NCBI GenBank assembly: GCA_030280995.1
Contig: JASXTE010000011.1
Location: forward strand, 25,466,817 to 25,530,816
Length of the DNA stretch: 64,000 bases
DNA from: Hemileia vastatrix
Taxonomy: Eukaryota > Basidiomycota > Pucciniomycetes > Pucciniales > Zaghouaniaceae
Reading direction: 5' to 3'
The notes beneath the pieces were generated by a model, which saw only the letters and a program-made list of their open reading frames with translations, was not told the origin of the DNA and did not search any database. The translations under genes were made by a program, and so were the position numbers. Each line of letters starts with the position of its first letter. The first letter of the stretch is position 1. Below, in pieces: positions 17,876-53,103 of the stretch.

Positions 17876-20176
17876 ATGTTTAGAGGGGAATTTTGGAAAC
17901 CCTCATTTTTTGGGGTAGCAGGGGCTGTTCACTCTAATGTTTCAATCTCTTCCCAGGATGAGATCCTGGATTGCAATAGGTCAGCTCACTTGGAGATAAT
18001 TCAAGTGGATTCTCAAATATTTTCTGTTAATAATAAGTTAAATTTTTATTATGTCTTCAAATTTTTGGTTTGTCTCACTTCTATGTCAAGTTTTTCAATC
18101 ACGTTCAAGAATGGATCAAGAGGGAAGATGGGAAATATTATGTTGAGTAAAAATTGGAATGGTTTATTTTCTGACCTCCAGAAAGAGGGTAAACTGCAAT
18201 TATTTCATCAAAGTTCTAAAAAAAATCTTAGTATAATTAAAACCCAAAATTTTTTTTTTGATAATTTGATTTCGGTCCTCCAGCAAGAGAATAAACTGCC
18301 AACTTTTTTTACTGGTGATTTTATGATGGATAAGGGAAGTAAAGGTGTTGGAAATTTTTTTGATAAACTAGACAAGGGAAAAGAGAAAAGGGTTAAATTT
18401 AAAAATGAAATAAAATATTTTTCTACTTATATTAATTCTAATTCTGACAATGAAGTGAATTCCTTTGATGAAATTTTAAATGGAAATACAAAAAAAATTA
18501 TTTTACCTCAATTTTATGTAGATGTGGAGGCAGCAAAATATAAGAAGGTAGCAAATAAAATCTGACCAATTAATGAAATGCTTCCTGCTGAATTAAATCC
18601 ACCTTTGAGAAGACCAAAGCTATCAAGAGATCCTTATGAATGTCCCTTGGTGAAGAATCTGCCCAAATTTTCTGAAAGGTCAAGAATCACTTTTGATAGA
18701 TTAGGTGTATTAAAATTATGACCTGATGGTTGGTTGTCTGAAGAAGAGAAGAAGTTGTTGTTGGATGTGATGGTCAAGCGAGAGAAGGCCATTGCCTTTG
18801 TAGAAGAGGAGAGGGGTGTGTTGAAGCATTCCTATGGGGAGCCTTACAAAATTCCTGTAGTATGTCTTGAACCATGGCAGCAAAAACCAATCCCAATTCT
18901 GGCTACATTAAAAGAAGCTTATATCGAAGTTGTCAGAGAAAAGATTTGCACTGGACTGTATGAGCAATCATCATCAAGTCATTCTAGTCCAGTATTTTGT
19001 ATCAAGAAACTGAATGGAAAACTTAGAGTAGTTCATGATCTCAGGGAATTAAATAGGGTTACAATAAAGGATGCTGGAATACCACCTAGTGCTGAGGAGT
19101 TTGTGGAAGCGTTTTCTGGGATAGTGTGTTATGGTTTAGGTGATATAATGGGGGGATATGATGAGAGAGAGTTGCATCCAGACTCTAGGCCTCTCACTAC
19201 TTTTGATACACCGCTAGGATGATTACAATTGACAAGATTACCTGAAGGAGCAACAAATTCAGTTGCCTTTTATCAAGCTCAGATGGCTTGTATTCTTCAA
19301 GATGAAATTCCTTAATATGCTGGAATCTTTATTGACAATGGAGGAATTAAAGGACCTTCAACAGATAACAATAATGAAGTGTTGGAGGAGAACCCAGGAA
19401 TACAAAAATTCATGTGGGAGTACGCAATAACTTAAGAGAGAATCTTTTTTAGAATTGAAGAAGCTGGTTTAACTATTTCGGGTTAAAAATTTTCATGTTG
19501 TGCTCCAGCTTTAGAGATTTTAGGTCATGTGGTATGTAGAGAAGGTAGGATTATGTTTAAGAAGAAAGTGAATGAAATTCAGTCCTGGCCAAGACCCAAG
19601 AATACAACCAAAGTTAGGGGGTTTTTAGGCATATGTGTTTATGTTCAAATGTTTATCAAGGACTTTTCTTCTTTTGCAGCTCTGTTGAGAAGGTTGATGA
19701 GAAAGGATGCAGACTGGGAGTGGGATGAAGAGTGTGAAAGGGCGTTTGAGAGATTGAAGAAGGTTGTGGGGAAGGATTTAGTCATGCACAAGTCAGATTA
19801 TGGAATAGATGCTGGTAGGATTTATTTAGCAGTTGACTCAAGTAAGGTTGCTGATGGGGCAGTTTTGTCTCAGATGGATAAAGCTGGTTACATTAGGCCA
19901 GTTAGGTATGAATCTGTGGTATTCACCAAAGTTGAATCAAGATATTCTCAGCCAAAATTAGAACTGTGTGGAGTGGAAATTTTTTTAAAGAAATTTCAAA
20001 ATGTTTTATGGGGCCAACACTTTGAATTGCAAGTGGATGCAAAATCTTTAATTCAAATTATTAATTCCCCAAGTTTACCAAATGCACCTATGACTAGATG
20101 GGTAGCATTCATTCAACATTTTTCTTTTGACTCAGTTTATAAGCCTGGAAAAACTTTTACTATTCCAGATGTTTAG
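17876..20176 (+). pseudogene. pol: Element A pol: spacer, reverse transcriptase, RNase H
   Basis: The pol frame starts at ATG 17,876, directly after the Gag-Pro stop. A 230-residue spacer without known domain comes first and contains two LxxExKL repeats (18,175 and about 18,277) that coincide with copies of hairpin module 1. RT follows from about 18,734 with SSPVFCIKKLNGKLRVVHDLR and LPEGATNS blocks; the catalytic box is FIDN instead of FIDD (about 19,330-19,341). RNase H starts near 19,815 (AVDSS). Stops lie at about 18,563, 18,719, 19,220, 19,313, 19,433, 19,484 and 20,174. Confidence 0.88.
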
Positions 20177-21962
20177 TCAAGAAGACCACCCAATGAAGAT
20201 GATTCAGACTCAGAAGATTTCAATGAAGATATACCTATGATTAAAGCCAGCACTAATGGAGCTGAAGACTTTTCATACCTCCCCCATGAGGTTAAACTGG
20301 CAGTACTATTGTGTATAGATGGTTGTGATGATGACCTCCACCAATAGGATAAACTGGAAAATTATTTTTATGAGAATAAAATTGATGAAATTGGTGTAGA
20401 TAAAATTGGTAAAAAAGAGGTAGAAGAAGATATTATGTATATAGATGAAGATGGAGTGGTAGTTTGGGAAATTAGTAGGTTAAGGAAGGGTGTATATGTT
20501 GGGGAATTAGAGACTTCAGTTAAAAAGAGGATGGACAAATCTATGTGAATAAAGGGTGAAGAATAGAAAGAGGTATTTTTGAATTTGGTTTCTAAGAGGT
20601 TCAAAGGTTTAGAAGAAGAATACTGACATAGTTCAATCAAGAATCAAATTTGTGGTCAATGTCTATTGGATCATTCATGTGCAGGTGATATTGGTGGTAG
20701 AGAAGTGCCCATTGATATTATATTAATCGATTTTCAAGATGAAGTCTGGGGTCAGACTGGTTTTTATTTTTTGTTGGTCAAATATTTATTGACTTTAGAA
20801 AGGCCAGAATATTGTGAAGATGATGAATGGGTGGCTATAAAAAGGAAGTCATATACATTTTACTTATCTGGTCAAAAATTAATTAAAAGGAGGTATCCAT
20901 ATCCTCAAGTAGTTTTAACTCAAAAGAAAGGGCAAGAATTAGTTTTAAAGTCACTGCATGAAGATCTTGGGCATAGAGGCGTTGGAGAATCATTCAGAAG
21001 AATTTCTGATTGATTTTGGTGGCCAGGCATAAAGATGGCTGTTCAACAGTTGGTCCAGTCATGCAAAGAATGTGAAAGAAGAAGTTATTTAAGGCCGAAA
21101 GAACCTGGACACACTACTGGAAAAAATACTCTCTTTGGAAGGGTTAGCTTGGATGCCATTCATATTAAGGAGGGACGGTATAAATATTTAATTGTAGCTA
21201 GAGATAATTTATCTGGTTAAGTAGAGGCAGCGCCTCTCAATAATTTGACTGCCAAAAATGTGGCTGAATTTATTTTGAAAAACTGGGTGTATCGATATGG
21301 AGTTATAAAATTGGTAACGGTAGATGGAGGTCCTGAGTTTGGGACAGAGTTTAGAAAAGCTATATCAAAAGTTGGGTCAAATATTAGGGTAGCAACCCCT
21401 TATTATCTTGAAGCTGAAGGTATGGTTGAAAGAGGGCATCAAGTAATTAAGGATGCTTTAGTCAAAATGTGTGGGTCAAGTGCTGAAAAGTGGAGGCATT
21501 ATTTACCTTTAGTTTTATTTTCTGATCAAATTAGTGCCAAAAGGACAACCAGATTTTCACCCTATGAACTTTTTTTTGGACAGAATGCAGTTTTACCAGT
21601 TGATTTGGAAGCTGAATCATATCTTGGAGTTGACTAGGACATGGTCAAGACTACTGAAAAGCTATTATGTGCAAAAATGTTGCAGCTAGAAAAGAAAGAA
21701 GAGTACTTAGAAAAGGCATATTTGCAGATGATGAAGATCCAAAATCAGTCAGTAAGATATTAGGATGAGAGGTTGGCACATTGACTTAGAAAACATTTGA
21801 AAACTGGAGATATGGTTTTGGCATATAATAGGAGTTTGGAGAGCCAATGGGGCAAGATGTTTGAAGATAGGTGGAATGGACCGTATAAAGTCAAGGAACA
21901 AGTATCTGGCAGTTCATATGTTTTAGAAGAGTTGGATAGAGTGGTACTAAAAAAGAGGGTAG
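20177..21962 (+). pseudogene. pol: Element A pol: linker and integrase
   Basis: A highly acidic linker (20,177-20,660) carries two further module-1 copies (20,278 and 20,334). Integrase follows: the zinc-binding region GHRGVGESFRR and C-X2-C (SCKECERR, 21,060-21,085), and the DDE residues in LDAIHI, VDGGPEFG and EGMVERGHQ, all still present. Stops at about 21,011, 21,218, 21,635, 21,761 and 21,782; several replace Trp or Arg codons of element B. The frame is interrupted at 21,966 by element B and resumes at 40,871. Confidence 0.88.
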
Positions 21963-21966
21963 CCGC
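21963..21966. other. Target duplication CCGC of element B (left copy)
   Basis: CCGC is repeated at 40,867-40,870, directly outside the right LTR. Removing B and one copy restores the A pol reading frame through KKRVA and QVKRFYPRG, as in element B's own pol end (KKRVASDQVKRFYPRG). This proves the insertion boundaries. Confidence 0.95.
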
Positions 21967-23058
21967 TGTAGAAAATCCTATAGTACTAGCTATAGGCCTT
22001 GACCAAGGGAGTTGGAGAAAAACCAGAGAGAAAATCCCCTGTCCCTTTAGAAAAATAGAGTGAGATTTACTTGCTAAAGTAAGTTGGTTCCTGTTTTGCT
22101 AAAGCCCCTTTTAAACACACTTGACTGCTTGATGAGCCAAGAAAGTAGTCACCAGATAGACTACCAGACCAAAGAACTGAAATGTAGAACAAAGTCCACA
22201 CCAGAGACAGCAAAGATACTTGATGTAGGCTGCAAATCCACACCAGAGACAGCAATAATACTTGCTATAGCTTGCAAGACTATAACAGAGAAAACAGTTA
22301 CCAAAGTTAAGTTAAATGAAGAACTCACTTGCAACAAACACAGCCAATTGTGGCCAGAAAACAGTGAAAACTGAGTGAGGAACAATGAGATCACCTCCGG
22401 ATTGTTGTATGATGATTAAGGTTGCCCCAAACTGTCTTATTCACTATGTACACACAGACCATTAACTAAGAGCCCATGCGCACCCACCAATCTGGCGCCT
22501 GTACCTGCCAAATTGCATAAAAAACCCTCCTGGAGTGCTCCCCAACCTCCTAAAACAGAGGCGGGCGGGCCGCCCGACGTCGGAGATGCCGCCTGAAGCA
22601 GCCCGGCCTCCCTGAAGCCAGAAAACCAATAAAAACCACTAATCTACTTAGAAAAATTAGCTACAACTACTAAAACCTTTAAAACACAGAATTTCACTAT
22701 AACAACATTGGGACATGAAATATAGAGAAAAATTAGCTCTATCAAATGGTACTAAGAACTTAACCCTAAGACTTAAGGTTAGCCCATAAAACACGAAAAA
22801 CAAAATTAAACAGCAATCTTTTATAAATGAAAAAAGAGGAAATGACCCCTTAAAACTCAGAATATGAAATATTTCTACAAGACATAAAATATAGAGAAAG
22901 CCAGGGCTATCTAATGATAGCACCCACATACCTGCAGACCCAATATCCATGGAATAAAATCAGAAAAATACACCATTCTTTAACAAATGTCAATTAAGAC
23001 ATGCACAAACCGCGCCAAATCACACAACAAAGGCCCTTGCCAATGTTGGAAGACCACA
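21967..23058 (-). repeat. Element B 3' LTR (1,092 bp)
   Basis: On the plus strand it begins TGTAGAAAATCC and ends GGAAGACCACA; it equals 39,775-40,866 apart from scattered substitutions. The short ORFs in it recur in all four B/C LTRs and overlap on both strands; I do not regard them as genes. It contains a GC-rich 60-bp patch (about 22,555-22,620) in otherwise AT-rich sequence. Confidence 0.95.
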
Positions 23059-23076
23059 TCCTCCCTCCAATTGAGA

Positions 23077-23736
23077 ATGTCTGCATTCTTTCTTCATCCA
23101 ACCACCATGTTTAACCTTCTTCCCAAATCTGCCTCTGAAATGGGCCCCTGCCAATACTGCATCGACAATAATTTAATCTGCGCCATGACACCACCTGTTC
23201 ATCCATACAGAACGTCCTGTGATGTCTGCCAATCTAGAAAGAAGACCTGCCACAGACCTGGTCCACTTTCTTCCACAACAGATTCACCTCCACCTCAACC
23301 TGGTCCTTCTTCTGCTAGCACCAACATCCATCCTGATACCCAGATTAATCAAAAAGCTCCAACCTTCCCAGAAGGGTGCCACAACCCATAAAACATCTAG
23401 TTCCCCCATCCCTGGTCCATCCAATGGTAAAGAACATTCATTTCTTCCTTCAACTTTAAAACTGATAACTTCTCAGTTCCTCCCTCTTCTGATAGTGATG
23501 ATAACAATGTAGGATCCATCACACCACCAACACCAACGCACTTGCCCACTATCAAGGCCAAGTTCCAACAACACACATCTCAACAGAAACAATTTCTGCT
23601 TCACTACTTCCAATCCACTCCTGCTAGAGATCCACAGGACATTGAGAACAGAAGACACCTCATTCACCAGTTCAAAGCTAATTCTGAACACTTCATTTCA
23701 TCTCTTGATTCCCTCTGTAATTCCACTAGTACTTGA
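23077..23736 (+). pseudogene. Antisense ORF1 of element B (zinc-cluster protein), frameshifted
   Basis: Likely start at ATG 23,077 or 23,107, just inside the LTR. The N-terminal half has C-X2-C-X6-C-X12-C-X2-C-X6-C, which fits the GAL4-type Zn2Cys6 pattern, with basic residues between the cysteines of the second half (CDVCQSRKKTC). A 50-nt intron is inferred at 23,427-23,476 (GTAAAG donor, CTGATAAC branch site, CTCAG acceptor). The second exon ends at TGA 23,734-23,736. Compared with the copy in element C, 11 nt are missing near 23,318, which shifts the frame after the cysteine cluster. Opposite in direction to element B. Confidence 0.7.
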
Positions 23737-23797
23737 GTTTGATTCAGAAAAGAAAAATTGACCACACTCTCTATAGGATATAACCACAAACAACCCT

Positions 23798-24458
23798 CAG
23801 TTTTAAGTCTTGGGGGACCATCCTCATTTTATAGTCTTTGGGGACTCAGAAACCCTCAGTTTAAAGTCTTGGGGGACTCAAAAACCTAAATCATAAACCC
23901 AGAAGCAGAGATCAACCACATTAAGACACAGAGAAAAAACTAACATTCTGGGGTAATTGTGAATAGAGCTACCAGCCCATCAATTACCCCCAAACTTGCC
24001 TTTGCTAAATTCGGAGGCTCCCCCAGTGGATACCCTCCACCAATCTTTCAAACCCAACTCCAACAACAAAAAACTCCTTTTTCCTCAGTTTATAGTCTTG
24101 GGGGACTTACAACCCTCAGTTTAAAGTCTTGGGGGACTAAACCAACAACAATCCTCAGTTTAAAGTCTTGGGGGACTAACACAGTGTTCAGTTTAAAGTC
24201 TTGACGGACTAGTCTTGATAAAATATTGAAACCAGCCAGTTTAAAGTCTTGGAGGGCTACTAGATCCACAGTAGTAAAATTAAATTCTTGAATAAATCTT
24301 TAAAAACCAGCCAGTTTTAAGTCTTGGAGGACTAACAAAAACCAGATTTCAGTTTAAAGTCTTGATGGACTGATCTTGATACCATAGATTTTTCAGTTTA
24401 GAGTCTTGATGGACTGCCTTTATAATATAGCTTTTTCAGTTTAGAGTCTTGATGGACT
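23798..24458 (-). repeat. Hairpin module 1 array, element B (12 copies)
   Basis: Sense (minus) strand copies: 23,798-23,819, 23,825-23,846, 23,857-23,878, 24,086-24,107, 24,117-24,138, 24,156-24,177, 24,189-24,210, 24,237-24,258, 24,312-24,333, 24,350-24,371, 24,394-24,415, 24,437-24,458. Each is a 4-nt stem (mostly AGTC/GACT), a 6-nt loop (CCCCAA, CTCCAA, CGTCAA, CATCAA) and a TTAAACTG-like tail. Spacing is irregular, so this is not a simple tandem repeat. Confidence 0.85.
23950..23990 (-). repeat. Hairpin module 2, element B copy 1
   Basis: A perfect 10-bp inverted repeat, GGGGTAATTG and CAATTACCCC, around a 21-nt loop that contains the conserved GGGCTGG(C/T)AGCTC-type core. Homologous hairpins in A, B and C have GGGGTAACTG with CAGTTACCCC, a compensatory exchange. 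Confidence 0.85.
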
Positions 24459-24609
24459 GACGGAATTTTGCATAAAATGGACGCAGCCAATTTCATGCAG
24501 CACACCTCTACAGCCAACCTGCTGAGCTTTCACCTTCACTTCATCATCTACCCATCACTGACAACAATCTCCTCCTATCCTTTTTCATCATTATTTCTCA
24601 CCACAGATC

Positions 24610-26158
24610 ATGGCTGGATCTCCTGATGTTAACCCTTCTACTCTCCCTTACTTCACTGCTCCCAAGGACTATGCCTGCAAACAGTGCATCCACATGTGCA
24701 GACCTTGCACATTCACTCTTCCAAATCCTGAATCCAAATTCTACAACAAGGCTTGTGACTCTTGCTATTCCAAAAAGAAAAGATGTGACAGAGACGCCAA
24801 CTACCCTATTCCTCTGCCTTCTCCTTCTCACAAATACATCTCCAGATCCCCTACCAGATCCCCAGAGCTTGGTCCTTCCTCTTCCTCTCTATCTTCTGCT
24901 CCTTCCAGAAGATCCAGAAGCTCAGCTTCCAGCACTCTTCCAAAAAGACCAGCCTTAGCCTCACAAGAAACTACTTTTATCTCCGCCAAATTAGCTCCAA
25001 AAGCTTCAAAATAAACTCCCAGGCTTCTAGACTGCATCCAGGCGGCCTGCCTGCCTCACCAAACAGTGAAAATCAGGCCCAAAACCTCCAAAAACGGCCA
25101 GAAAATAGCCAAATTCATCCAGACAACAACAACAACTCAACCCAACAACCTCCTACTGCTCCCAGAGCAATGCAACCCACCCTTCCAAAGTCCAAAAGCA
25201 CCAAAATTTACCAGATTTCTAAGAGAACTGCCAGAGAACCCTAAGAAGAAACCAGAATACCACACACTGCTCCATAACAACAACTTTGTCCCCAACTAAG
25301 ACAAAGAAACTACACCTCTCCTCTGTCAGCCAACTACTCTTCTGACAGTTCCATCTCTTCAAATTCTCCATCCAGAAGAGAGCAGTCTGCTTCCAAATCC
25401 CCCTCTCCTGCTCCATCCTTTAACAACCCTGGTACTCCATCACCAGCACCTCCTCCAGCTGAATCCAACAGAAATAACAACCACAACAACAAAAATCTCA
25501 CTGCTCCAACTAGGCCCCAGGAACATCAGCATCCCAGTTCACCTTCTCAGGATCCTTCAGAGGAAGACAATGAGAATCCATATCTTTCACTAGTTGATCC
25601 ACCCACTATGACCTTTACAAAATCGTCAGAGATCCAAATCCCAGCTGCTTACAGATTTGATGAGCTTCCAATCTGTAAGTACCAAATTAATTATTCCATT
25701 TCTTCAACAAAAATAATTACTGATCCAATTATTCTTGTCTAGTTGGCACCCCTCCTCCTGAATCTATTATTGGAGTTGGCCAAACTCTTGAAACTTCTTT
25801 GACCCTGGATTATGGAGACATGAAGAAACACCTAAGCACCATGTGTTCCAATATGCTAAAAGCCTTTGCCCTCCATGGACCTTTGAATGACTTTGAAAAA
25901 TCCCTGAGAAAGCGCCTACTGGACAACCACTAAAAAATGTCTAGGATCATTAAACACACCCTCCAGCACTCCATTCCTACCTCTTCTTCTTCCTACTCTG
26001 AATTTCCCTCTAATCCAATTCCTGACCATTACAATCCCTATAATCTCTCCAGCAGGATGCACTTCAAAGAACACAGTGCTTCCCACAATCCCAACAAAAA
26101 ACAAAAACATCATCAAAATCTGGACCAGCCTCCAGAAGCTTCATCATCCAGACAATGA
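24610..26158 (+). pseudogene. Antisense ORF2 of element B (zinc-cluster protein), broken
   Basis: Homologue of the intact 500-residue gene in element C. ATG at 24,610; N-terminal C-X2-C-X6-C-X15-C-X2-C-X6-C with a basic second half (CDSCYSKKKRC). A TAA at 25,012-25,014, a deletion of about 20 nt near 25,050 and a further TAA near 25,243 break exon 1. The intron is kept at 25,675-25,742 (68 nt, GTAAGT to CTAG), the same length as in C. Exon 2 (25,743-26,158) has TAA where C has Trp (about 25,931). The conserved exon structure supports a real spliced gene in the ancestor. Confidence 0.75.
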
Positions 26159-27373
26159 GCTCCTGCAAAAGATTAGAAACATAAAAATAGTATAAAACAA
26201 ATAATAAAAAATAATTTCAGAATTTTTTTTTTTTTTTTTACTGTCTACTGATATACTAAAATAAAAAATTAATAATTAAAATGAAATGAAATAACATAAA
26301 TGAAATAAAATAAAATATAAAAAATAATACAAATGGTATCCCCCAGCCAATTGATGAGCTGATCCCCTGATACCTTGCCCACATCCAAGTGCACCTTGAT
26401 GTGGATACACAATTAATTCTTTTAAATGGTTAACAGAAAACAAAATTCAAAAAATTTTAGAAATTCAGAAAATAATAAAAATAATGAAACACAGAAACAC
26501 ATGAAATAAATAATAAATAAAAATAAGAAAATAGCATTGCCCGGCCAATTGATGAGCCTTTCCCCACCAATGCTTGCCCACATCCAGGTGACCCTGATGT
26601 GGTAACACCCTATATTTTTGATTTTATAATTTTAAACAAACCCCATAAAAAAAGTAAAAGAAAAAAAGAGAAAAAAGAAAATAATCTAAAACTGCTTTCT
26701 AGCAAAAACATAACTGCAAAATCAAAGAAAGTCCAGCTCCATAGATGGCCCAAAAAGAGAAAGTCCGGTCCATAGAAATGATCACTGGGTGGGCTCCCTC
26801 CAATAAGTAAAAATGATGGGAGACCACCAGTGATCCACCACCAATCTGAAAGAACCAAAGATAAAGAAGCCAGTCCCAAACCAGTTTAAAGTCATAGCGG
26901 ACTTAAAACCTGAATAATAAACAACAGAACCAGAATTCAACTAGAAAAAACAAAAGACTTGAGACAGACATTCTGGGGTAACTGTTCTACAGAGCAGCCA
27001 GCTCATCAGTTACCCCCACACTTGCCAAAATAAAATCTAGAAGCCCCCCCTGGGTACCTTCTAACAAAAACACAACATCCAACACAAAAAACCAAAACCA
27101 ATAAGAGTGAAGAGTCCGGCACTTGAAAACCAAAGGAATTTCCAGTTTAAAGTCATAGAGGACTAAAACCTGTGAAAAGAAACCAATACTAGGGTTCAAC
27201 CAAATTAAGAAAAAGGGTTGGAAACAGACAATCTGGGGTAACTGTTGATAGAGCAGCCAGCCCATCAGTCACCCCTACACTTGCCAAGATCAAATCTAGA
27301 AGCCCCACCCATGGGTACCCTATAACAAAAGTTTCCAACAAACAGATGCATAGCATCACCACAAAAAACCAAA
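26159..27373 (-). repeat. Element B 3' region: hairpin modules 1 to 5
   Basis: No gene here. On the minus strand I find: module 3 (inverted repeat CCACATC/GATGTGG) at 26,379-26,404 and 26,578-26,602; module 4 (GGTATC/GATACC at 26,335-26,374; GCATTG/CAATGC at 26,534-26,573) around a conserved GCTCATCAATTGGC core; module 5 (17-bp stem) at 26,782-26,835; module 2 at 26,975-27,016 and 27,235-27,275; module 1 at 26,882-26,903 and 27,142-27,163. The order mirrors 45,560-46,830 in element C, confirming homology. A poly-T/A tract is at 26,222-26,239. Confidence 0.8.
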
Positions 27374-27479
27374 ATTAGGGGGTGTCAGTTCTGGCAAATC
27401 CGCACTTAACTTAAGTGCGGATTTCAAACCAAATCAGCACTTACAAATCAGCACTTAATTTTGCAAAAAAGTCACTTAT

Positions 27480-41367: not shown

Positions 41368-41371
41368 CCGG

Positions 41372-42464: not shown

Positions 42465-42468
42465 TTTC

Positions 42469-42485: not shown

Positions 42486-42555
42486 TGGAACTTGCTAGTT
42501 CTTTGGAATCTCTGTTTTATTTGGTTGGCTCTTTTTGGTGTTTTGGTCAGGAGGA

Positions 42556-44937
42556 ATGGCTTCTGGTTCTGCTATTCCTGTGGTGACTGTCAGTGGGGGG
42601 GATGGTCCTCCTTCTGTGATGGTTAGGGAGTGTGTAAGGATTAAAACTTGGGATGGTACCAAGTTTAATGGGGAGGATGTCAAGTGGTTTCTAGAGAAGT
42701 ATGAAACTGCTGCTGGAGTGGATGGTGCTTCCTACCTGGACATGGTGAAGCAGATTATCTTCTTCATTGGTGATAGGTCAGTGGAGAAGGAGATTGTGGC
42801 CATGTCTGGCTACAAGAAGAGGGATTGGAAATTGTTGTGTAGTGAAATGGTGGATAGATGGGGTGTCAGGTTCACTATGGTGGACTTGAACAAGGTTGTC
42901 AGTGAATGGCAATCTTATGGTGGTGTTGGTAACTTGCATAGTTACAGGAAGTTTCTGCTACAGTTTGATCCTGTGGTGGAATACTTGGTGGAAGTGGAGG
43001 AGCTGGCACATGAAAATGCTGCCAAAGATGTTTTTTGGTCTGCCCTGGCTAGAGATGTCAGGATGGATGTGTTGAAGGAGTTGTCAAGAAAGGAATTGAA
43101 GAAAACTCTTTCTAATGGGGATCAGAAGTTGCCTGCCTTGGATAAGGTGAAGGAGGCTGTTGAGGCCCATTTGAAGTTATTGGCTGTGGAAACCTATCAG
43201 GAGGGGTGTGCCAAGTATGTCAGCAAAGTCAGTGAGGCTTTGGCTGAAGAGGAAGTTAGGGAGAAGAAGGAGGAGAAAAATTTGGTGCAGGTTCCCAAAC
43301 AGGAGAGGGACCCAATGGTGGAGCAGCTGGCTGATCTGACAAAATAGCTGCACATTTTTGTTCAGGAGGCCAAGAAGGTTAATAAGGCACCTTCTCAGTC
43401 AAGAGAGTTTGAAAGAAGGGCTGGTAGGAATGATCCTTGGGTTTGCTCTTATTGTAGTAAGAGAGGACACAGGTCCAATGATTGTTGGGCACTGAACAGA
43501 GATGTGTCTGAAGGAAAAGTGGAGTTTGATGGCAGGGTTTTTAAGTTCCCTGATGGTTCTTTTGTGAAGCCCAGTGAGGGGCAGGCTCCTGTTGATTTGG
43601 TCAGGAGAAGGGGTGGTCTCAATCAAAGGAGGCCAAGGTTTGAGGAGATTCCTGATCAGGGGAAGTCTTCTGTTAAGGTAGATGAGGACGTCAAGGGAAA
43701 GGGGAAGGAGGTCAATAAGGTCTCTTTTTCTACTTCTTTTGGTGGTTTGGAGTTGTATTCTTGTGGTGGACAGTCAAGTGGTGAATGCTTGGCTGGTGTT
43801 TATGATGTGGAAGCAGGAAAGGTGGGTAGGCCTAAGAGCAGTTCTCAGGCCCAACCAAAGCCAAATGCTTCAAAGGGTGATCCTAAGCTGAGTGCAGCTA
43901 GGAAAAGGTACAGCAAAGAGGAGCTGTACAAGATGCAGAAGGGTATGGCTGACGTGGGCCCCCCTAGTTTTGGTGCATTGGACCTGAATGGTGAGCCAAT
44001 GCCAATGGAGGTGGATTCTGACTCCGAGGAGGATGTCCCTTTAGCTTCATTGCCAAAGCCTGTTGGAGTCAGAGGTTCTGGTGAGGGATCTGGTTTGGTT
44101 CCTGTTAATGGTAAATCTGTTGTTGGTGCTGGTCCTCAAGAATCTTCTAGGACCAAGGCGGTGAAGCAAAGAGCTCACTTTGAGAGGCCAGTAGTGTCTG
44201 GTCAAGTTAATGTTATGGACTCTGTCCTGGAAAGGATGAACCAGGGTCAGGTTTCCCTATCTTATGGGGAATTGTATGCTATCAGTCCAGGTTTGGCTGA
44301 TAGGCAGAAGAAGTTGTTGACCAGGAGAAGGGTTTCTTCTGGTGAGGTAGAATACATTTGTGATTCTGCTGAAAAGTTTGGTGAGGGGTTGGAAACTCAT
44401 TTTTCTGCTCCTCTGGGATATTTCAATGTCACTCTGAATGGCAGGGAGGCAAGGGCATTGGTGGATTCAGGTTCTCAGATAAACCTGATTTCTTTGTTTG
44501 AGGCAAGTCATATGGGCCTCCCCACAAAAACTGGTATTGGTGGGAATTTGAGAGGGATCGGTGGCCATGTCACTGAATTGGTCGGACCTTCAGAGTTTGT
44601 GAAGTTAGATGTTGGAGGAGCCTCAGGGAAGGTTCATTTTTACATTGCTTAAGGTAATGTAAAAGCAGTTTTGGGCGGGCCATTCTTGATGGATTTTCAG
44701 GCAAGAATTGGTTATCAATTTGATTTGGGAATCAGTTTGGAGTTGACTGGTGAAGACGAAAGGAGGCTTCACATGAGGTTATCATCCCCTGGAGAGGATG
44801 GTTGGGAGACTAGGCCTGGTTTATCTTCAATGTGCCAGTGCATGGACTGCTGCAGGAGAAGGAAGGAAGTGGGTGCTGCCTCTGGTTTTTTGGAGTGCGG
44901 CTCAGGCTCTATTGAGAGTCTGTCTTTTTTAGAGTAA
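42556..44937 (+). pseudogene. gag-pro: Element C Gag-protease, nearly intact
   Basis: ATG 42,556. Gag and protease are one frame. Only two nonsense positions are seen: TAG at 43,345-43,347 (CAG in B) and TAA at 44,650-44,652. The zinc knuckle C-X2-C-X4-H-X4-C (43,445-43,485) and the retropepsin site DSGS (about 44,464-44,475) are intact. The terminal TAA 44,935-44,937 overlaps ATG 44,937-44,939. Very similar to element B over the full length. Confidence 0.9.
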
Positions 44938-44939
44938 TG
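44935..44939 (+). promoter_or_regulatory. Stop-start overlap TAATG between Gag-Pro and pol
   Basis: Gag-Pro TAA and pol ATG share one base. Element B has the same arrangement at 37,304-37,300 (minus), and element A has TAATTATG at 17,871-17,878. This suggests pol translation by termination-reinitiation, as described for some LINEs and fungal viruses, in place of frameshifting. Confidence 0.65.
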
Positions 44940-45542
44940 AGGGCTGATCACCCTAGTGCTACAACCTCTCCCCGAGATGAGGAAATCCCAGGTTGTAGTA
45001 GGTCAGCTCCCTTGGAGATATACCAAGTGGATTTTCAACTTTCTCTTTTTAATGTTTCTCTTCTCTGCAAGTATTCATCAAGTTTTTTATCAAGTCTCTG
45101 TTCTCTCTCAAGATTCTTAATTATTTTTAATTCAAGTTTAAAGAAGAAGATTGGTTATATATCTTTATTGAAAGATATACGGAAAAGTTTTGGGGCGGTG
45201 AGATTGGGGTCTAAAAGTAAGTCCTCCCAATTGTGCACCGCTAGGGTTTCTTCTACACCTTTCAAAAACATTACCTGGGCCACACCTGTGAGCATTTGGG
45301 AAACCCTTGGTTATTTTTGTAGGTCAGAAGAAAACTCAAGAAAAGAAGATAAAAATTTCAAGATAATTCAAGAAAATCAAGAAAAAAATCTGAAGATAAT
45401 GAAGAAAGAAGATGCAAAATATTTTTGTGAAGATTGTCAAGATCTATTTTTGGGCCTCCAGCATGAGGTTTAACTGCAGAAAATTTTGAAGCATGATGAT
45501 CGTCAAGATTTATTTTTGGACCTCCAGCATGAGGTTAAACTG
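44937..45542 (+). pseudogene. Element C pol spacer, RT and integrase deleted
   Basis: Starts at the overlapping ATG and runs open to TAA 45,471-45,473. It encodes the spacer seen in B, including SKSSQLCTARVSSTPFKNIT and the LQHEV repeats. The latter coincide with module-1 copies at 45,455 and 45,520 (CCTC/GAGG stem, loop CAGCAT). Homology with B pol ends right behind the second copy, where the sequence changes to 3'-region DNA. Confidence 0.75.
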
Positions 45543-46829
45543 TAAAGTTTTATTTCTAAATTGGATTTTTTTGGCTTTAAAGAATTTTAATGGTTTTTTA
45601 ATGGTTTTGGTTTTTTACGGGAGAAGATTTGTGTTGGAAAATTCTTTTTGTTATAAGGTACCCAGGGGTGGGGCTTCTAGATTTTATTTTAGCAAGTGTG
45701 GGGGTGACTGATGGGCTGGCTGCTCTATCAACAGTTACCCCAGATTGTCTGTTTCCAACCCCTTCTCTTAATTTTGTTGAATTCTAGTATTGGTTTTTTT
45801 TCTTTAACAGGTTTTTAGTCCTCTATGACTTTAAACTGGAAATTGCTTTGGTTTTCAAGTGCCGGAATCTTCACTCTTATTGGTTTGGATTTTTTTGAGT
45901 TGAATGTTGTTATTTGTTAGAAGGTACCCAGGGGGGGCTTCTAGATTTTATTTTGGCAAGTGTGGGGGTAACTGATGAGCTGGCTGCTCTGTAGAACAGT
46001 TACCCCAGAATGTCTGTTTCAAGTCTTTTGTTTTTCCTAGTTGAATTCTAGTTCTGTTGTTTATTATTCAGCTTTTGAGTCCGCTATGACTTTAAACTGG
46101 TTTGGGACTGGCTTCTTTATCTTTGGTTCTTTCATATTAGTGGTGGATCACTGGTGGTCTCCCATCATTTTTACTTATTGGAGGGAGCCCACCCAGTGAT
46201 CATTTCTATGGACCGGACTTTCCCTTATTGGAGCATCTATGGAGCTGGACCTTCTTTGATTTTGCAGTTATGTTTTTGCTAGATAGTAGTTTTAGATTAT
46301 TTTCTTTTTTCTCTTTTTTTCTTTTAATTTTTTTATGGGGGTTGTTTAAAATTATAAAATCAAAAAATATAGGGTGTTACCACATCAGGGTCACCTGGAT
46401 GTGGGCAAGCATTGGTGGGGAAAGGCTCATCAATTGGCCGGGCAATGCTATTTTATTTTTATTTATTATTTATTTCATGTGTTTCTGTGTTTCATTATTT
46501 TTTTATTATTTTCTGAATTTCCAAATTTTGAATTTTGTTTTCTGATTAATCATTTAAAAGATTTAATTGTGTATCCACATCAAGGTGCACTTGGATGTGG
46601 GTAAGGTATCAGGGGATCAGCTCATCAATTGGCTGGGGGATACCATTTGTATTATTTTTTATATTTTATTTTATTTTATCTCATTTATGTTATTTCATTT
46701 CATTTTAATTATTAATTTTTTATTTTAGTATATCAGTAGACTGTTAAAAAAAAAAAAAAAAAAAAATCCTGAAATTATTTTTATCATTTGTTTTATATTA
46801 TTTTTATGTTTCTAATCTTTTGCAGGAGC
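45543..46829 (+). repeat. Element C 3' region: hairpin modules 1 to 5
   Basis: Module 2 at 45,701-45,741 and 45,965-46,006, each followed about 80-110 nt later by module 1 (45,817 loop CTCTAT; 46,078 loop CGCTAT). Module 5, a 17-bp stem, at 46,147-46,200. Module 3 at 46,380-46,404 and 46,575-46,600. Module 4 at 46,409-46,448 (GCATTG/CAATGC) and 46,605-46,644 (GGTATC/GATACC). An A tract lies at 46,746-46,766. No gene on the plus strand. Confidence 0.85.
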
Positions 46830-48400
46830 TCATTGTCTGGATGATGAAGCTTCTGGAGGCTGGTCTGGATTGTGATGACGTTTTTGTTTTTTGTTGGGAT
46901 TGTGGGAAGCACTGTGTTCTTTGAAGTGCATCCTGCTGGAGAGATTATAGGGATTGTAATGATCAGGGATTGGATTAGAGGGAAGTTCAGAGGAGGAAGA
47001 AGAAGAGGCAGGAATGGAGTGCTGGAGGGTGTGTTTAATGATCCTAGACATTTTCCAGTGGTCGTCCAGTAGGCGCTTTCTCAAGGATTTTTCAAAGTCA
47101 TTCAAGGGTCCATGAAGGGCAAAGGCTTTTAGCATATTGGAACACATGGTGCTTAGGTGTTTCTTCATGTCTCCATAATCCAGGGTCAAAGAAGTTTCAA
47201 GAGTTTGGCCAACTCCAATAATAGATTCAGGAGGAGGGGTGCCAACTAGACAAGAAGAATTGGATCAGTAATTATTTTTGTTGAAGAAATGGAATAATTA
47301 ATTTGGTACTTACAGATTGGAAGCTCATCGAATCTGTAAGCAGCTGGGATTTGGATCTCTGACGATTTTGTTATGGTCATAGTGGGTGGATCAACTAGGG
47401 AAAGATATGGATTCTCATGGTTTTCCTCTGAAGGATCATGAGAAGGTGAACTGGGATGCTGATGTTCCTGGGGCCTAGTTGGAGCAGTGCGATTGTTGTT
47501 GTTGTTGTGCTTGTTATTTCTGTTGGATTCAGCTGGAGGAGGTGCTGGTGATGGAGTACCAGGGTTGTTAAAGGATGGAGCAGGAGAGGAGGATTTGGAA
47601 GCAGACTGCTCTCTTCTGGATGTAGAATTTGAAGAGATGGAACTGTCAGAAGAGTAGTTGGCTGACAGAGGAGAGGTATAGTTTCTTTGTCTTAGTTGGG
47701 GACGAAGTTGTTTTTGTGGAGCAGTGTGTGGTGTTCTGGTTTCTTCTTGGGGCTCTCTGGCAGATCTCTTAGAAATCTGGTAAATTTTGGTACTTTTGGA
47801 CTTTGTAAGGGTGGATTGCATTGCTCTGGGAGCTGTAGGAGGTCGTTGGTTTGAGCTGTTATTGTTATCTGGATGAATTTGGCTATTTTCTGGCCGTTTT
47901 TGGAGATTTTGGCCCTGATTTTCGCTGTTTGGTGAGGCGGGCGGGCCACCCGAGGTCGGCCGGGCCGCCTGGACGCGGTCTAGAAGCCTAGGGGTTGATT
48001 TTGAAGCTTTTGGAGCTAATTTAGCAGTGATAAAAGCAGTTTCTTGAGAAGCTAAGGCTGGTCTTTTTGGAAGAGTGCGGGAAGCTGAGCTTCTAGATCT
48101 TCTGGAAGGAGCTGAAGATAGAGAGGAAGAGGATGGGCCAAGTTCTGGGGACCTGGTAGGGAATCTGGAGATGTACTTGTGAGAAGGAGAAGGCGGAGGA
48201 ATAGGATAGTGGGCATCTCTGTCACATTTCTTTTTTTTGGAATAGCAGGAGTCACAAGCCCTGTTGTAGAATTTGGCTTCTGGATTTGGAAGAGTGAATG
48301 TGCAAGGTCTGCACATGTGTATGCACTGTTTGCAGGCATAGTCCCTTGGAGCAGTGAAGCAAGGAAGAGTAGAGGAGTCAACAGCAGGGGATCCAGACAT
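46830..48400 (-). CDS. Antisense ORF2 of element C: intact zinc-cluster protein, spliced
   Basis: Two exons, 48,400-47,314 and 47,245-46,830, joined over a 68-nt intron (GTAAGT to CTAG) give exactly 501 codons (500 residues and stop). The N-terminus has C-X2-C-X6-C-X15-C-X2-C-X6-C, similar to a GAL4-type cluster with a slightly long middle loop; the second half is basic (CDSCYSKKKRC). A Ser/Pro/Asn-rich, probably disordered middle and a C-terminal part with HLSTMCSNMLKAFALHG and LRKRLLDDHWKMSR follow, then KKQKRHH, a possible nuclear signal. It lies opposite to the element. Element B holds a broken homologue with the same intron. A DNA-binding role is inference. Confidence 0.78.
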
Positions 48401-48549
48401 GATTTGTGGAGTGAAAGGTGATGAAAAGGATAAGAGAAGATTTTGTCAGTGATGAATAGAAGATGAAGTGAAGGTGGACGCTCCGTGGGTCTGGCTGTGT
48501 GTGTGTAATGCATGAAATTAGCTGGGTCAGATTCATGCAAGATTCTGGC

Positions 48550-48999
48550 AGTCCTCTATGACTCTAAACTGGAAAATTTATAAGTCCTCCAAGACTTTAA
48601 ACTGGCTGGTTTCAAGATTTTATCAAGAAGTAGTCCGTCAAGACTTTAAACTGAACATTGTGTTAGTCCCCCAAGACTTTAAACTGAGGGTTGTAAGTCC
48701 CCCAAGACTATAAACTGAGGGAAAAGTTTTTGTTGTTGGAGTTGGTTTGAAATATCTGTGGAGGGTATCCACAGGGGGAGCCTCCGAATTTAGCAAAGGC
48801 AAGTTTGGCAGTAATTGATGGGCTGGCAGCTCTATTCACAATTACCCCAGAATGTTAGTTTTTTCTCTGTGTCTTAATGTGGTTGATCTCTGGTTCTGGG
48901 TTTATGATTTAGGTTTTTGAGTCCCCCAAGACTTTAAACTGAGGGTTTTTGAGTCCACCAAGACTATAAAATGAGGATGGTCCCCCAAGACTTAAAACT
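48550..48999 (+). repeat. Hairpin module 1 array, element C (8 copies) with module 2
   Basis: Module-1 starts: 48,550, 48,583, 48,632, 48,665, 48,696, 48,920, 48,952, 48,978. Loops CTCTAT, CTCCAA, CGTCAA, CCCCAA, CCCCAA, CCCCAA, CACCAA, CCCCAA; stems AGTC/GACT, the last GGTC/GACT with a sense-strand G-U pair. A weakened module 2 is at about 48,811-48,850. The array lies 150 bp upstream of antisense ORF2. Confidence 0.85.
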
Positions 49000-49061
49000 G
49001 AGGGTTGTTTGTGGTTACATCCTATAGAGGGTGTGGTCAATTTTTCTTTTCTGAATCAAAC

Positions 49062-49732
49062 TCAAGTACTAGTGGAATTACAGAGTGAATCAAGAGATGA
49101 AATGAAATGTTCAGAATTAGCCTTGAACTGGTGAATGAGGTGTCTTCTGTTCTCAATGTCCTGTGGATCTCTAGCAGGAGTGGATTGGAAATTGTGAAGA
49201 AGAAGTTTTTTCTGTTGAGATGTGTGTTGTTGGAACTTGGCCTTGATAGTGGGCAAGTGCCTTGGTGTTGGTGGTGCAATGGATCCTACATTGTTATCAT
49301 CACTATCAGAAGAGGGATGAACTGAGAAGTTATCAGTTTTAAAGTTGAAGGAAGAAATGGATGTTCTTTACCATCAGATGGACCAGGGATGGGGGAACTA
49401 GTTGCTTTATGGGTTGTGGCACTCTTCTGGAAAGGGTGGAGCTTTTTGATTAATCTGGGTATCAGGATGGATGGCCTAGATCTTTTGGTGCTGGCAGAAG
49501 AGGGACCAGGTTGAGGCGGAGGTGAATCTGTTGTAGAAGAAAGTGGACCAGGTCTGTGGCAGGTCTTCTTTCTGGAGTGGCAGACATCGCAGGAAGTTCT
49601 GTATGGATGAACAGGTGGTGTTATGGCGCAGATTAAATTATTGTTGATGCAGTATTGGCAGGGGCCCATTTCAGAGGCAGATTTGGAAAGGAGGTTAAAC
49701 ATGGTGGTTGGATGAAGAAAGAATGCGGACAT
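49062..49732 (-). CDS. Antisense ORF1 of element C: intact zinc-cluster protein, spliced
   Basis: Exons 49,732-49,372 and 49,321-49,062, joined over a 50-nt intron (GTAAAG, CTGATAAC branch site, CTCAG). From ATG 49,732 this gives 206 residues; ATG 49,702 gives 196. An in-frame ATG at 49,822 lies in the LTR. The cysteine pattern is C-X2-C-X6-C-X12-C-X2-C-X6-C, within the accepted spacing of Zn2Cys6 clusters, with CDVCHSRKKTC as the basic half. The C-terminal exon (KAKFQQHTSQQKK and on) is nearly identical to that of element B. No known domain besides the cluster. Start is a choice: transcription could begin in the 3' LTR on the antisense strand. Confidence 0.75.
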
Positions 49733-49750
49733 TCTCAATTGGAGGGAGGA

Positions 49751-50824
49751 TGTGGTCTTCCAACATTGGCAGGGGCCTTTGTTGTGTGATTTGGCGCTGT
49801 TTGTGCATGTCTTAATTGACATCTGTTAAGGAATTTGGTAATTTTCTGGTTTTATTCCGTGGATATTGGGTCTGCGGGTATGTGGGTACTATCATTGGAT
49901 AGCCCTGGTTTTTCTCTATATTTTATGTCTTGAAGACATTTTTCATATTCTGAGTTTTAAGGGGTCATTTCCTCATTTTTCATTTATAAAAGATTGCTGT
50001 TTAATTTTGTTTTTCGTGTTTTACGGGCTAACCTTAAGTCTTAGGGTTAAGTGCTTAGTACCATTTGATAGAGCTAAATTTTCTCTATATTTCATGTCTC
50101 AATGTTGTTATAGTGAAATTCCGTGTTTTAAAGGTTTTAGTAGTTGTAGCTAATTTTTCTAAGTAGATTAGTGGTTTTTATTGGTTTTCTGGCTTCAGGG
50201 AGGCCGGGCCGCTTCAGGCGGCCCGGCCGCCTCTGTTTTAGGAGGTTGGGGAGCGCTCCAGGAGGGTTTTTTATGCAATTTGGCAGGTACAGGCACCAGA
50301 TTGGTGGGTGCGCATGGGCTCTTAGTTAGTGGTCTGTGTGTAAATAGTGAATAAGACAGTTTGGGGCAACCTTAATCATCATACAACCATCCGGAGGTGA
50401 TCTCATTGTTCCTCACTCAGTTTTCACTGTTTTCTGGCCACAATTGGCTGTGTTTGTTGCAAGTGAGTTCTTCATTTAACTTAACTTTGGCAACTGTTTT
50501 CTCTGTTATAGTCTTGCAAGCTATAGCAAGTATTATTGCTGTCTCTGGTGTGGATTTGCAGCCTAAATCAAGTATCTTTGCTGTCTCTGGTGTGGACTTT
50601 GTTCTACATTTCAGTTCTTTGGTCAGGTAGTCTATCTGGGGACTACTTTCTTGGCTCATCAATCAGTCAAGTGTGTTAAATAGGAGCTTTAGCAAAACAG
50701 GAACAAACTTACTTTAGCAAGTAAATCTCACTCTATTTTTCTAAAGGGACAGGGGATTTTCTCTCTGGTTTTTCTCCAACTCCCTTGGTCAAGGCCTATA
50801 GCTAGTACTATAGGATTGTCTACA
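49751..50824 (+). repeat. Element C 3' LTR (1,074 bp)
   Basis: Starts TGTGGTCTTCC and ends TTGTCTACA, followed by CCGG. It differs from the 5' LTR by a deletion of about 20 bp in the GC-rich patch (near 50,220) and few substitutions. Confidence 0.95.
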
Positions 50825-50828
50825 CCGG

Positions 50829-53103
50829 ATTCAAGATTCTTTTTATTTTTATTTTTGTTATTTCTTTTATGTTAGATTTTTTATATAATGATATATGTGT
50901 TTTGTTCATTTTAATTTTTGAAATACTATAAAATATTGTTAAGGGAAATGATCATTGGTGGTCTCTAATCATTTTTACATATTTGGAGGGAGCCCACCCA
51001 GTGATCATTATCATAAATTTTATTTTTCTAAACTTTCATTTTTTTTTGGATTTTCAATTTCTCAAAATTGTGTAACCACATCAAGTTGCACTTGGATGTG
51101 GGTATGATGTTGAGGGTATGGCTCATCAATTGGCTGGGGGGCATCTTTTAAATTTTAAATTTTATTTTATTTTAATTTTTTTTTTTTCAAATTTCTCAAA
51201 TCTACTTTTAAACATTTACTTTCTTAAACTTTCATCACATATAAAAAATAATAATAAAATAATAAAATAAAAATAAAGAATAAAAATGAAAATAAAAATA
51301 AAAATATAAATATAAATATAAATAAATAAAAAAATAAAAATAAATAAATAAAAATAAAAATAAAAAAAAATAAATAAAAAATAAAAATAAAATAAATATA
51401 TAAACATACAATTATTTTTCAAATTTTTTTAAAAATTAATTTTCAATTTTTCTTTTTGTTTATTTCTTTTATAGTATATTTTATATAGGAAAAAGGGTCA
51501 AGTGGAGCTCGAGCAAAATTGGATCCTACTTCAAGATCTGTTAGTCCTCCAAGACTTTAAACTGGCTAACTTTCAATACTTTCTTTAAGGTTTTATTTGA
51601 ATTTTGGGATCTGTTAGTCCTCCAAGACTTTAAACTGGCTAACATTCAAGACTTTCTTTAAAGGGTTATATTCGTTATTTTAGGATCTTTTAGTCCTCCA
51701 AGACTTTAAACTGGCTAATGTTCAAGACTTTCCTTAAGGTTTTAGTTGAATTTTGGGATCTGTTAGTCCTCCAAGACTTTAAACTGGCTATTATTCAACA
51801 CTTTCTTTAAAGGGTTATATTCTTTATTTTAGGATCTGTTTGTCCTCCAAGACTTTAAACTGGCTAACTTTAAAGACTTTCTTTAAGGTTTTATTTGAAT
51901 TTTGAGATCTGTTAGTCCTTCAAGACTTTAAACTGAATTTAAACAACATTCAAGATTTCATGGATATTTTTTATCGGGGAAAGGATTTTTTTATATAAAT
52001 TGGTATCAATAAAATCATTGGTCCACCATGACCTTAAACTGGTAGTTCATTAAATGATTGGTCCACCATGACCTTAAACTGGTATTTCATCAAAATTTTG
52101 GTCCACTATGACCTTAAACTGGATTTTCACTTGATCAGAAGTTTGGTCCACCAAGACTTTAAACTGGATTACCAAAATTACTCAATCTTTCGTCAGGCTT
52201 AGGCCTTAATTAGGAAGAATTTATGCACATAAACAATCTTTAGTCAACTAAGACTATAAACTTGCAATTGATTAAATGTATGGTCCACCAAGACTTTAAA
52301 CTGGAATGACAATCTATTTGGTCAAACTCAGTTCAATCATCTTAAATTATGACTATCCACCAAGACTTTAAACTGGACATTCAATTATTGTTGGATTTAG
52401 GTGTTGTAAGATTTAGGAGGATAAAATTTAGGTGGTAATGATGCTAAGAAGGCATAATGGTTATATTAGGTAAAATTTGTGGCACTTTAACATGGTCTAA
52501 AAGATTAAAGTTAAATATTGGAAGCCTGGCTAAAATACTTGTTAAAGGCTGCTAAATAGCAAATGGATAAAAATAGTGATGAAGGAATTAGAAGTCAGGA
52601 TGGTACTTGGATTTATTATTGATTTTTTTTAGAGCCTCAGTGTTAGGTTTTTTTTTGGTGTGAAGCTTGGAGGACCTCATGGAAAGATTGGAATCATAGA
52701 ATTCAGCTCAGTGGGGGGGACCTATGAGAATGGAATCAAGAGTATTTGCCTCATTAGGCAGATCCACTCTCTCATGCTGTGATATAGATGGAAGACTGAT
52801 ATATGGGAGTCTGAAGAGATTCAAACCTTGCTCTCAGTAGTGGAATCATAACAAAATTATTTTTATTTTCATTATTTTTTTTATGATTTATATCAAGAGC
52901 CAGAGAAGAAGACAAAAAGTTAAATTTATAGAAGACCAGCAAAAGGACATTGATTGAAAATCACCAATAGTTAAATTTCAGAAAAGATGTTTCATGTATC
53001 TCTTTCCACATCATTATCAAAGACTATCAAAAAATATGTGAAAACAAATTTATATTGATTAAAAATTGAATAAGAATGAGGACATTCCATATTGGAGGGA
53101 GGA
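50829..53103 (+). repeat. Element A 3' region, second part, with module 1 array
   Basis: Module 5 at 50,952-51,008, module 3 at 51,076-51,101, module 4 at 51,106-51,145 (GATG/CATC). An (A/T)n low-complexity tract covers 51,146-51,480. Module-1 copies start at 51,543, 51,616, 51,692, 51,765, 51,841, 51,914, 52,020, 52,060, 52,100, 52,145, 52,242, 52,282 and 52,354; the first six are spaced about 73-76 bp in a higher-order repeat, the next use the GGTC/GACC stem. 52,390-53,103 has no recognisable feature; a purine-rich tract (GGAGGGAGGA) at 53,094-53,103 is the likely polypurine tract. Confidence 0.85.

Follow-up and report, generated by a model that had tools for sequence, protein, structure and literature searches.

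A 64,000-nucleotide stretch of the Hemileia vastatrix genome (assembly GCA_030280995.1, contig JASXTE010000011.1, positions 25,466,817 to 25,530,816 of the forward strand), here called the window, holds three nested long terminal repeat (LTR) retrotransposons, with element A hosting both of the insertions, B and C. All three carry many copies of a short unit, and the best overall explanation, which we consider probable, is that these units are 23-nucleotide compact H-type pseudoknots on the genomic RNA of the elements. As read from the sequence, this explanation is supported by the orientation of the units, their rigid geometry, matched changes in both stems and constraint at the level of nucleotides, and the evidence favours an RNA fold over an inverted-repeat site in DNA.

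Both strands of the window were searched with a 15-position degenerate motif that included the inner TC/GA letters of the stem and left the outer stem pairs free. The motif matched 38, 8, 4 and 2 times at zero, one, two and three mismatches, respectively, compared with 0, 0, 0 and 2 times in the reversed sequence. One three-mismatch match (13,941) lay outside the elements and was dropped, leaving 51 copies: 20 in A, 19 in B and 12 in C, the same figures as in an earlier note on this DNA. That note had placed every copy on the sense strand of its element, and 51 of 51 were found to be so oriented. A wider sample, 20 stretches of 10 kb taken at even spacing along the same contig, gave arrays in six stretches, within elements having this gag, pol or antisense open reading frame (ORF), and in each of the six every unit lay on one strand, the sense strand as set by gag, pol or the antisense ORF. 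One of these stretches (L042) had gag and 12 units close together with no pol match. The other 14 stretches were without arrays; two of them are L055, which contains a gag fragment of this type, and L056, where a sister pol is found.

Across the whole genome (747.6 Mb in 791 contigs) strict patterns detected at least 101,235 copies. As lower bounds, the counts were 46,752 for AGTC/GACT, 10,629 for GGTC/GACC, 5,330 for GGTC/GACT, 263 for AGTC/GACC, 3,518 for TGTC/GACT, 34,274 for CTC/GAG (CCTC/GAGG accounting for 31,478 of these), 269 for CTC/GAC and 200 for GTC/GAG. Reversed-pattern controls gave no matches, except one for the GTC/GAG count and three for the count of units with loop U3 and a non-A tail letter. 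When one form was sought at no more than one mismatch, 38,006 and 38,205 matches were found, with none in the reversed control. The repeat is neither a product of chance nor local. Nor are the copies one recent tandem expansion, an outcome for which the earlier note had allowed, since grouping them by flank identity, with a threshold of 62.5%, yields 47 clusters. That note had known of no described family of this form; consistent with this, a search of the window against Rfam returned no matches at gathering scores, and no repeated pseudoknot in LTR elements was found among the titles and abstract beginnings in capped lists of open-access papers. In viral contigs, nine stretches had one motif match each and no arrays, and these matches were taken as chance.

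The units had been described as micro-hairpins with a nearly constant tail. The hairpin was recovered, but the last three letters of the tail can also pair with loop letters 3-5. Judged on these patterns, the 23-nucleotide unit very probably fits a compact H-type pseudoknot. Stem 1 would consist of letters 1-4 paired with 11-14 (4 base pairs), loop 1 of C5 and N6 (two nucleotides, C first), and stem 2 of loop N7, Y8 and A9 paired with tail N23, G22 and U21 (3 base pairs); letter 10, a single A or U, would join the stems, and the A-rich loop 3 (NUAAAC, letters 15-20) would span stem 1. Pairing of the tail back into the loop would explain the fixed six-nucleotide loop, the fixed distance to the tail and the loop A. 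In the window and the 20 stretches together (264 kb), 83 units had a six-nucleotide loop with at least three stem-1 pairs and none had a seven-nucleotide loop, while all 10 matches at loop lengths of 5, 8, 9 or 10 were other registers of units with six-nucleotide loops. Over the same 264 kb no spacing other than one letter was found between the stem and TAAACTG, and TACTG in place of TAAACTG matched three times.

The earlier note had argued from compensatory stem changes for a folded sense-strand RNA, and this was borne out, with pairing above that of shuffled controls both on flank clusters and among 84 distinct units. Stem 1 was tallied in 85 copies from the window and the 20 stretches, defined by loop and tail with the stem letters left free. 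The inner pairs hardly varied (U-A in 84 of 85 and C-G in 82 of 85), pair 2 was G-C in 56, C-G in 28 and otherwise in one, and pair 1 was A-U in 46, C-G in 23, G-C in three, G.U in two, U.U in five and of other kinds in six. Genome-wide, pair 2 was G-C in 66,492 copies and C-G in 34,274, with mismatches rare (C.C 269 and G.G 200, thus 469 against 100,766). Pair 1 was A-U in 46,752, G-C in 10,629, G.U in 5,330 and A.C in 263, a ratio of G.U to A.C of 20:1; this excess is predicted by an RNA and not by a DNA half-site. All stem types named in the earlier note are present among the window copies. The CTC/GAG copies (31,155, 40,921 and 40,973) are among them, but their outer pair is an A.G mismatch and they lack the centre pair between loop and tail. 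Because CTC/GAG also occurs in post-integrase units, behind stops, coding alone does not account for the stem type. Elsewhere in the window the outer stem-1 pair is mismatched at 51,841 (T.T) and 18,277 (C.A), both outer pairs are broken at 52,354, and one inner pair is broken at 20,335 and at 24,258.

Loop letters 3, 4 and 5 are complementary to tail letters 9, 8 and 7: loop 5 is almost always A and tail 7 almost always U, loop 4 is mostly C or U opposite G, and loop 3 and tail 9 vary together. Among 165 copies the latter pair was C-G in 71, U-A in 30, G-C in 17, U.G in two and G.U and A-U in one each, with C.A in 21, C.U in 11 and other unpaired combinations in 11. Pairing was thus observed in 122 of 165, compared with 77.5 expected from the margins (an excess of 57%). 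Five shifted pairings gave 56 (50.0 expected), 121 (122.0), 84 (74.3), 58 (55.7) and 78 (75.1), an excess of at most 13% (84 against 74.3) or a value below expectation. When copies were reduced to flank clusters, loop 3 and tail 9 were paired in 31 of 47 (21.0 expected; p 5e-5, the lowest value that 20,000 shuffles allow) and, among clusters with C first in the loop and a CUG tail, in 28 of 34 (19.2 expected; again the lowest value, 5e-5), whereas shifted pairings on flank clusters gave p of at least 0.18. Genome-wide, 11,016 copies combined loop U3 with tail A9, against 974 in which the tail letter was G, C or U; among the 100 listed from these 974, 76 had G, which would form a U-G wobble, 18 had C and six had U. 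Within one 73-nucleotide array, the copy at 51914 differs from its neighbours by a matched double change, U3/A9 replacing C3/G9.

Both stems were also scored together on the 84 distinct 23-mers. The pseudoknot pairs accounted for 86.4% of cells, compared with 71.6% in shuffled sets (reached in 0 of 500) and at most 41.2% when the structure was slid; cells with a double change numbered 81 against 36.5 shuffled, and the covariation score was 0.325 against 0.126. Stem 2 alone was 79.8% paired against 68.1% shuffled. Pairing of the loop with downstream sequence, accompanied by covariation, is what characterizes an H-type pseudoknot, and it was found here with one pair carrying the covariation and one subclass failing. 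All three stem-2 pairs can form in 34 of the 51 window units. GG follows in 10 of the 11 units that lack only the outer stem-2 pair, and 14 of 19 C3.A9 copies have C2 plus a following GG; with this GG, A9 could bulge and loop C3 and C2 could pair with it. Among 139 copies with a CUG tail, GG comes next in 15 of the 22 units with a CC loop and in 2 of the remaining 117, mostly in one array type.

The same observations bear on whether the unit is a plain 4-base-pair RNA hairpin whose conserved loop and tail are bound by a protein, the complementarity of loop and tail being left over from a few ancestral unit types. RNAalifold returned stem 1 alone, although the program cannot show pseudoknots, one subclass has no stem 2, and a single stem-2 pair covaries. 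That covariation nevertheless persists on flank clusters and is absent from the shifted controls, and a bulged-A alternative pairing is available to the CC-loop class, so that we regard a plain hairpin as unlikely.

Several observations weigh against the pseudoknot. A single pair carries the covariation of stem 2: the inner A-U is nearly invariant, and at the centre only the loop letter changes (C or U, facing G), with 32 of 34 clusters paired where 32.0 were expected. The outer stem-2 pair alone is missing in 11 of 51 window units and the centre pair in 6 of 51. In the post-integrase subclass (CGNAAU loop, UAAACUA tail) the stem-2 centre is A.A, as in 21 of 165 copies, and no stem 2 was found for this subclass. 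Among the 84 distinct 23-mers the covariation score was still 0.218 when the structure was slid by +1 (compared with 0.325), and two of the five measures did not rise above shuffled sets: pairs with a double change numbered four against 4.0, and further pair types 13 against 12.4. The loop-tail patterns fix TC/GA and TAAAC, so that invariance at these letters arises by construction. The copies are related and independent double changes are few, above all at stem-1 pair 2; the G.U set consists mostly of two unit forms and the U.U set mostly of one, among the rows listed, so that few events are being counted. In 3,518 genome copies the outermost pair of stem 1 is U.U, and for five units the hairpin taken by itself is of low stability (-1.9 to -4.7 kcal/mol).

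The earlier note had offered, as an alternative to RNA, a DNA inverted-repeat site with a fixed 6-base-pair gap for antisense zinc-cluster proteins. On this view cysteine-rich proteins that the elements encode on the antisense strand would bind the site and might, for instance, regulate the promoter from which they are expressed. The 3' regions of B and C do contain antisense ORFs whose starts are rich in cysteine (47246-48445 and 49286-49825 on the minus strand and 22984-25733 on the plus strand). In both elements one array lies about 100 base pairs upstream of the larger antisense ORF, which has closely spaced cysteines at its start. Against such a site, the covariation of loop and tail has no place in an inverted repeat bound by a dimer, G.U exceeds A.C twentyfold, though in few unit forms, and all window copies are sense, with some in pol linkers. 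The Pfam search of the larger antisense ORF gave no zinc-cluster match and that of the smaller one only a match at an expect value (E) of 0.25. Fungal Zn2Cys6 operators are built of CGG-type triplet half-sites, whereas the half-sites here read NNTC. Overall we consider a DNA site improbable as the explanation; the array beside the antisense ORFs in B and C would still be compatible with an added role of this kind.

Could the matched changes have arisen without selection, by tandem amplification together with template-switch correction of imperfect palindromes during reverse transcription? The arrays are tandem and their copies related, as such a process would have it. Template-switch correction, on the other hand, would give loop letter 3 and tail letter 9 no reason to change together; the 47 flank clusters have the motif in common, and rare codons are retained at in-frame units. 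In addition, eight unit pairs shared by B and C were identical at 183 of 184 motif positions compared with 194 of 240 positions in ungapped flanks, a flank figure that any indels would lower. This origin therefore seems very improbable.

Inside pol the unit reads as the peptide LxxExKL, as the earlier note had reported; from the codons used, the peptide looks like a by-product of conserved nucleotides. Six-frame translation of seven sources gave 41 LxxExKL matches, of which 33 were this unit by its nucleotides and, as the search was defined, read L, E, K and L in one frame; six of the 33 belong to the post-integrase class and are not in an ORF, and tandem copies are not independent. The first leucine was CTC in 32 of the 33, a codon making up 6% of leucine codons in the same elements, GAG and AAA were used in all 33 (element usage 51% and 35%), and the second leucine was CTG in 27, CTA in five and TTA in one (usage 14%, 6% and 15%). 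Proline codons at the loop were CCC in five of six cases (usage 8%). In the other eight matches CTC was used in none and AAA in six. Rare codons are thus kept in the in-frame copies, which argues that nucleotides are conserved and not residues. Of 120 listed relatives of the RT ORF (RT, reverse transcriptase) six contain LxxExKL, each once; in four it stands within a similar stretch, LL.EE.KL, and in two it takes the form LRNExKL (P0071 and P0117), a frequency that by rough estimate is near chance. Most of the 51 window copies, moreover, lie in 3' regions outside pol. The notion that the peptide is the conserved entity and the untranslated copies its remnants was accordingly rejected, the codon choice contradicting constraint on residues, and we give it almost no weight.

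Polerovirus pseudoknots have segment sizes near 5/2/3/1/6-7, with a two-nucleotide loop 1 beginning with C, a 3-base-pair stem 2, a single junction letter and an A-rich loop 3. The predicted unit would be 4/2/3/1/6, its stem 1 having 4 base pairs, and it differs further in that there are 12-20 units per window element, most of them outside pol. The frameshift pseudoknot of poleroviruses (beet western yellows virus type) is of the compact H-type proposed here, and for that of sugarcane yellow leaf virus a triplex of loop 3 with the minor groove of stem 1 is described (PMC5009743). Near-invariant inner stem-1 pairs at the junction would fit triplex contacts between loop 3 and stem 1. A frameshift role for the set of units was tried and rejected: a slippery heptamer lay 4-10 nucleotides upstream in 0 of 51 units, against a background of 4.4%.

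Among Gypsy-group LTR elements, plant Ogre-type elements have tandem repeats in their 3' untranslated regions (UTRs) and Drosophila gypsy has an array of Su(Hw) sites, a DNA-binding site; they resemble the present elements in having repeat arrays, and we know of no RNA fold with covariation described for either. Pseudoknots in the genomic RNA of LTR retrotransposons have a parallel in Ty1, whose Gag prefers the folded form of a 5' long-range pseudoknot, folding helping recognition (PMC8396678), and in Ty3, with two predicted pseudoknots in gag/pol (PMC11381356). Ty1 thus has one long-range fold and Ty3 two predicted folds, whereas here a short unit is repeated. Tobacco mosaic virus (TMV) has three consecutive pseudoknots upstream of the tRNA-like end in the 3' UTR (PMC4683447). 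The likeness to tobamoviruses lies in the row of pseudoknots that their genomic RNA has in its 3' UTR; the differences are that TMV has three, that no sequence relation was shown, and that units here also occur in coding linkers. ARAGORN, a program that does not seek viral tRNA-like ends, found no tRNA or tmRNA gene in the window.

The matched changes in both small stems suggest that the fold itself is preserved and is a handle on the element RNA. In character the units resemble cis-acting elements on the genomic RNA: they are sense wherever seen, are placed in linkers and the 3' region, and are kept by an element without pol, C, which retains 12. Many units together would offer a multivalent docking surface on the full-length RNA. 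Docking might mainly be for the element's own Gag, and hence for packaging or localization of the RNA, a role that we put forward at somewhat less than even chances; B gag has a CCHC-like zinc knuckle (CSYCSRRGHRSNDC), which Pfam matched only at E 0.13. In Ty3, packaging and localization need both UTRs and POL (PMC11381356), and these are the kinds of region that hold the units here. More tentatively, the 12-20 mini-pseudoknots per element may form a distributed packaging code that Gag reads jointly to select full-length RNA, including that of pol-less parasites, and that has filled the genome with at least 100,000 copies. Some observations count against this reading. Retroviral packaging signals are placed differently, in that none of the window units falls within an LTR, the leader or gag; packaging of Ty1 is unaffected by point mutations in the stems of its pseudoknot (PMC8396678); and the 10 kb of L055 contain a gag fragment of this type but no unit. 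The main rival is that the pseudoknots serve RNA stability or translation, with 3'-region arrays protecting the RNA or recruiting translation factors. The largest arrays do lie in the 3' region, and the 3' UTR pseudoknots of TMV are able to bind eEF1A and have a part in both replication and translation (PMC4683447); units inside the pol coding linkers would not be expected from a 3' UTR role, and we hold this rival to be possible but doubtful.

The window copies occur in the linker between protease and RT, in that between RNase H and integrase, directly after integrase and in the 3' region; none of the 51 falls within an LTR, the leader, gag, or the RT or integrase domain. In element A (plus strand), two copies of the CCTC stem class lie in the protease-RT linker ORF (18175..18299; at 18175 and 18277) and two in the RNase H-integrase linker (20278..20357; at 20278 and 20335), and two of the ACTC/GAGG subclass without the stem-2 centre pair follow integrase (40921..40995). 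Its 3' region holds one AGTC/GACT copy (41317..41339), six copies in the 73-nucleotide array (51543..51936, the last at 51914) and seven at 52020..52376, with GGTC/GACC at 52020, 52060 and 52100, GGTC/GACT at 52145 and 52282, AGTC at 52242 and TATC at 52354. In element B (minus strand), two CCTC copies with G-C as outer stem-2 pair lie in the protease-RT linker (36696..36784), two CCTC copies in the RNase H-integrase linker (32688..32746), one ACTC/GAGG copy without stem 2 directly past the integrase stop (31133..31155), two copies in the 3' region (26881..27164; at 27164 and 26903) and an array of 12, also in the 3' region, between the antisense ORFs (23797..24458). In element C (plus strand), two CCTC copies lie at and just past the end of the protease linker ORF (45455..45543), and the 3' region holds two copies (45817..46100) and an array of eight (48550..49001). 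Another hairpin, GGGGTAATTG...CAATTACCCC, whose inner segment is conserved, is also repeated and is likewise sense in A, B and C (41208, 45700, 45964 and 48807 on the plus strand; 23991, 27017 and 27275 on the minus strand), and its stem has a matched change from TAATTG/CAATTA to TAACTG/CAGTTA.

The host elements have paired LTRs around gag and a pol in the order protease, RT, RNase H, integrase, with the aspartic protease preceding RT, which places them in the Gypsy/Ty3 class. Element A, of this type, spans 14101..54227 (plus strand; LTRs 14101-15248 and 53104-54227, 94.0% identical over a 1148-nucleotide alignment), with gag at 15339-17153, RT at 18722-19222, RNase H at 19487-20176 and an integrase match at 20744-21874; its LTRs contain internal 19-nucleotide tandem arrays (14354-14610 and 53343-53553), the 5' copy having about 13 units of AAAATTTGGTCACTGTGGC. 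Element B lies inside A at 21967..40866 (minus strand; LTRs 39775-40866 and 21967-23058, 96.4% over 1093 nucleotides); Pfam identified RVT_1, RNase H-like, integrase zinc and rve domains, with RT at 33111-34826 and integrase at 31223-32434. A stretch of B (34711-36637) that matches window 6683-7455 is bordered by a 148-nucleotide repeat (34537-34684 and 36914-37061, 86%) and is probably an insertion. Within the span of B, an ORF at 29168-29695 (plus strand) has a Tet-like 2OG-Fe(II) oxygenase domain (E 1.6e-22). Element C, also inside A, spans 41372..50824 (plus strand; LTRs 41372-42464 and 49751-50824, 96.6% over 1094 nucleotides); in the protein map it keeps gag-protease and the 3' region and is without RT, RNase H and integrase, except for a short match to the N-terminus of the RT ORF.

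The RT ORF of B has 147 protein relatives. Among the 120 listed, those with names are mostly from rusts (Austropuccinia psidii, Puccinia striiformis, P. coronata and Cronartium), the remainder being from other fungi, two labelled Sphingobacteriaceae MAG and many without a name. The sister family in L056, with an RT about 60% identical, has no array of this unit, only one stray minus-strand pattern match. It has an array of its own, six spaced 49-nucleotide units at L056:2244-2746, three with perfect hairpin arms of 15-17 base pairs (GTGTACCCTGATCTT...AAGATCAGGGTACAC) and another with GTGGAC/GTCCAC ends. Repeated RNA folds may thus be a wider habit of these elements.

The selection of RNA for packaging is poorly defined in Gypsy-group elements; even for Ty3 the cis sequences are described as not precisely defined (PMC11381356). 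A short pseudoknot present in many copies, with natural variants in both stems, would offer a direct test, compensated variants being supplied by the genome as a ready library. Should the fold prove real, the pol linkers carry RNA signals and their rare codons are kept for the fold, and with 101,235 strict copies a tertiary RNA motif would be met about every 7.4 kb in this genome.

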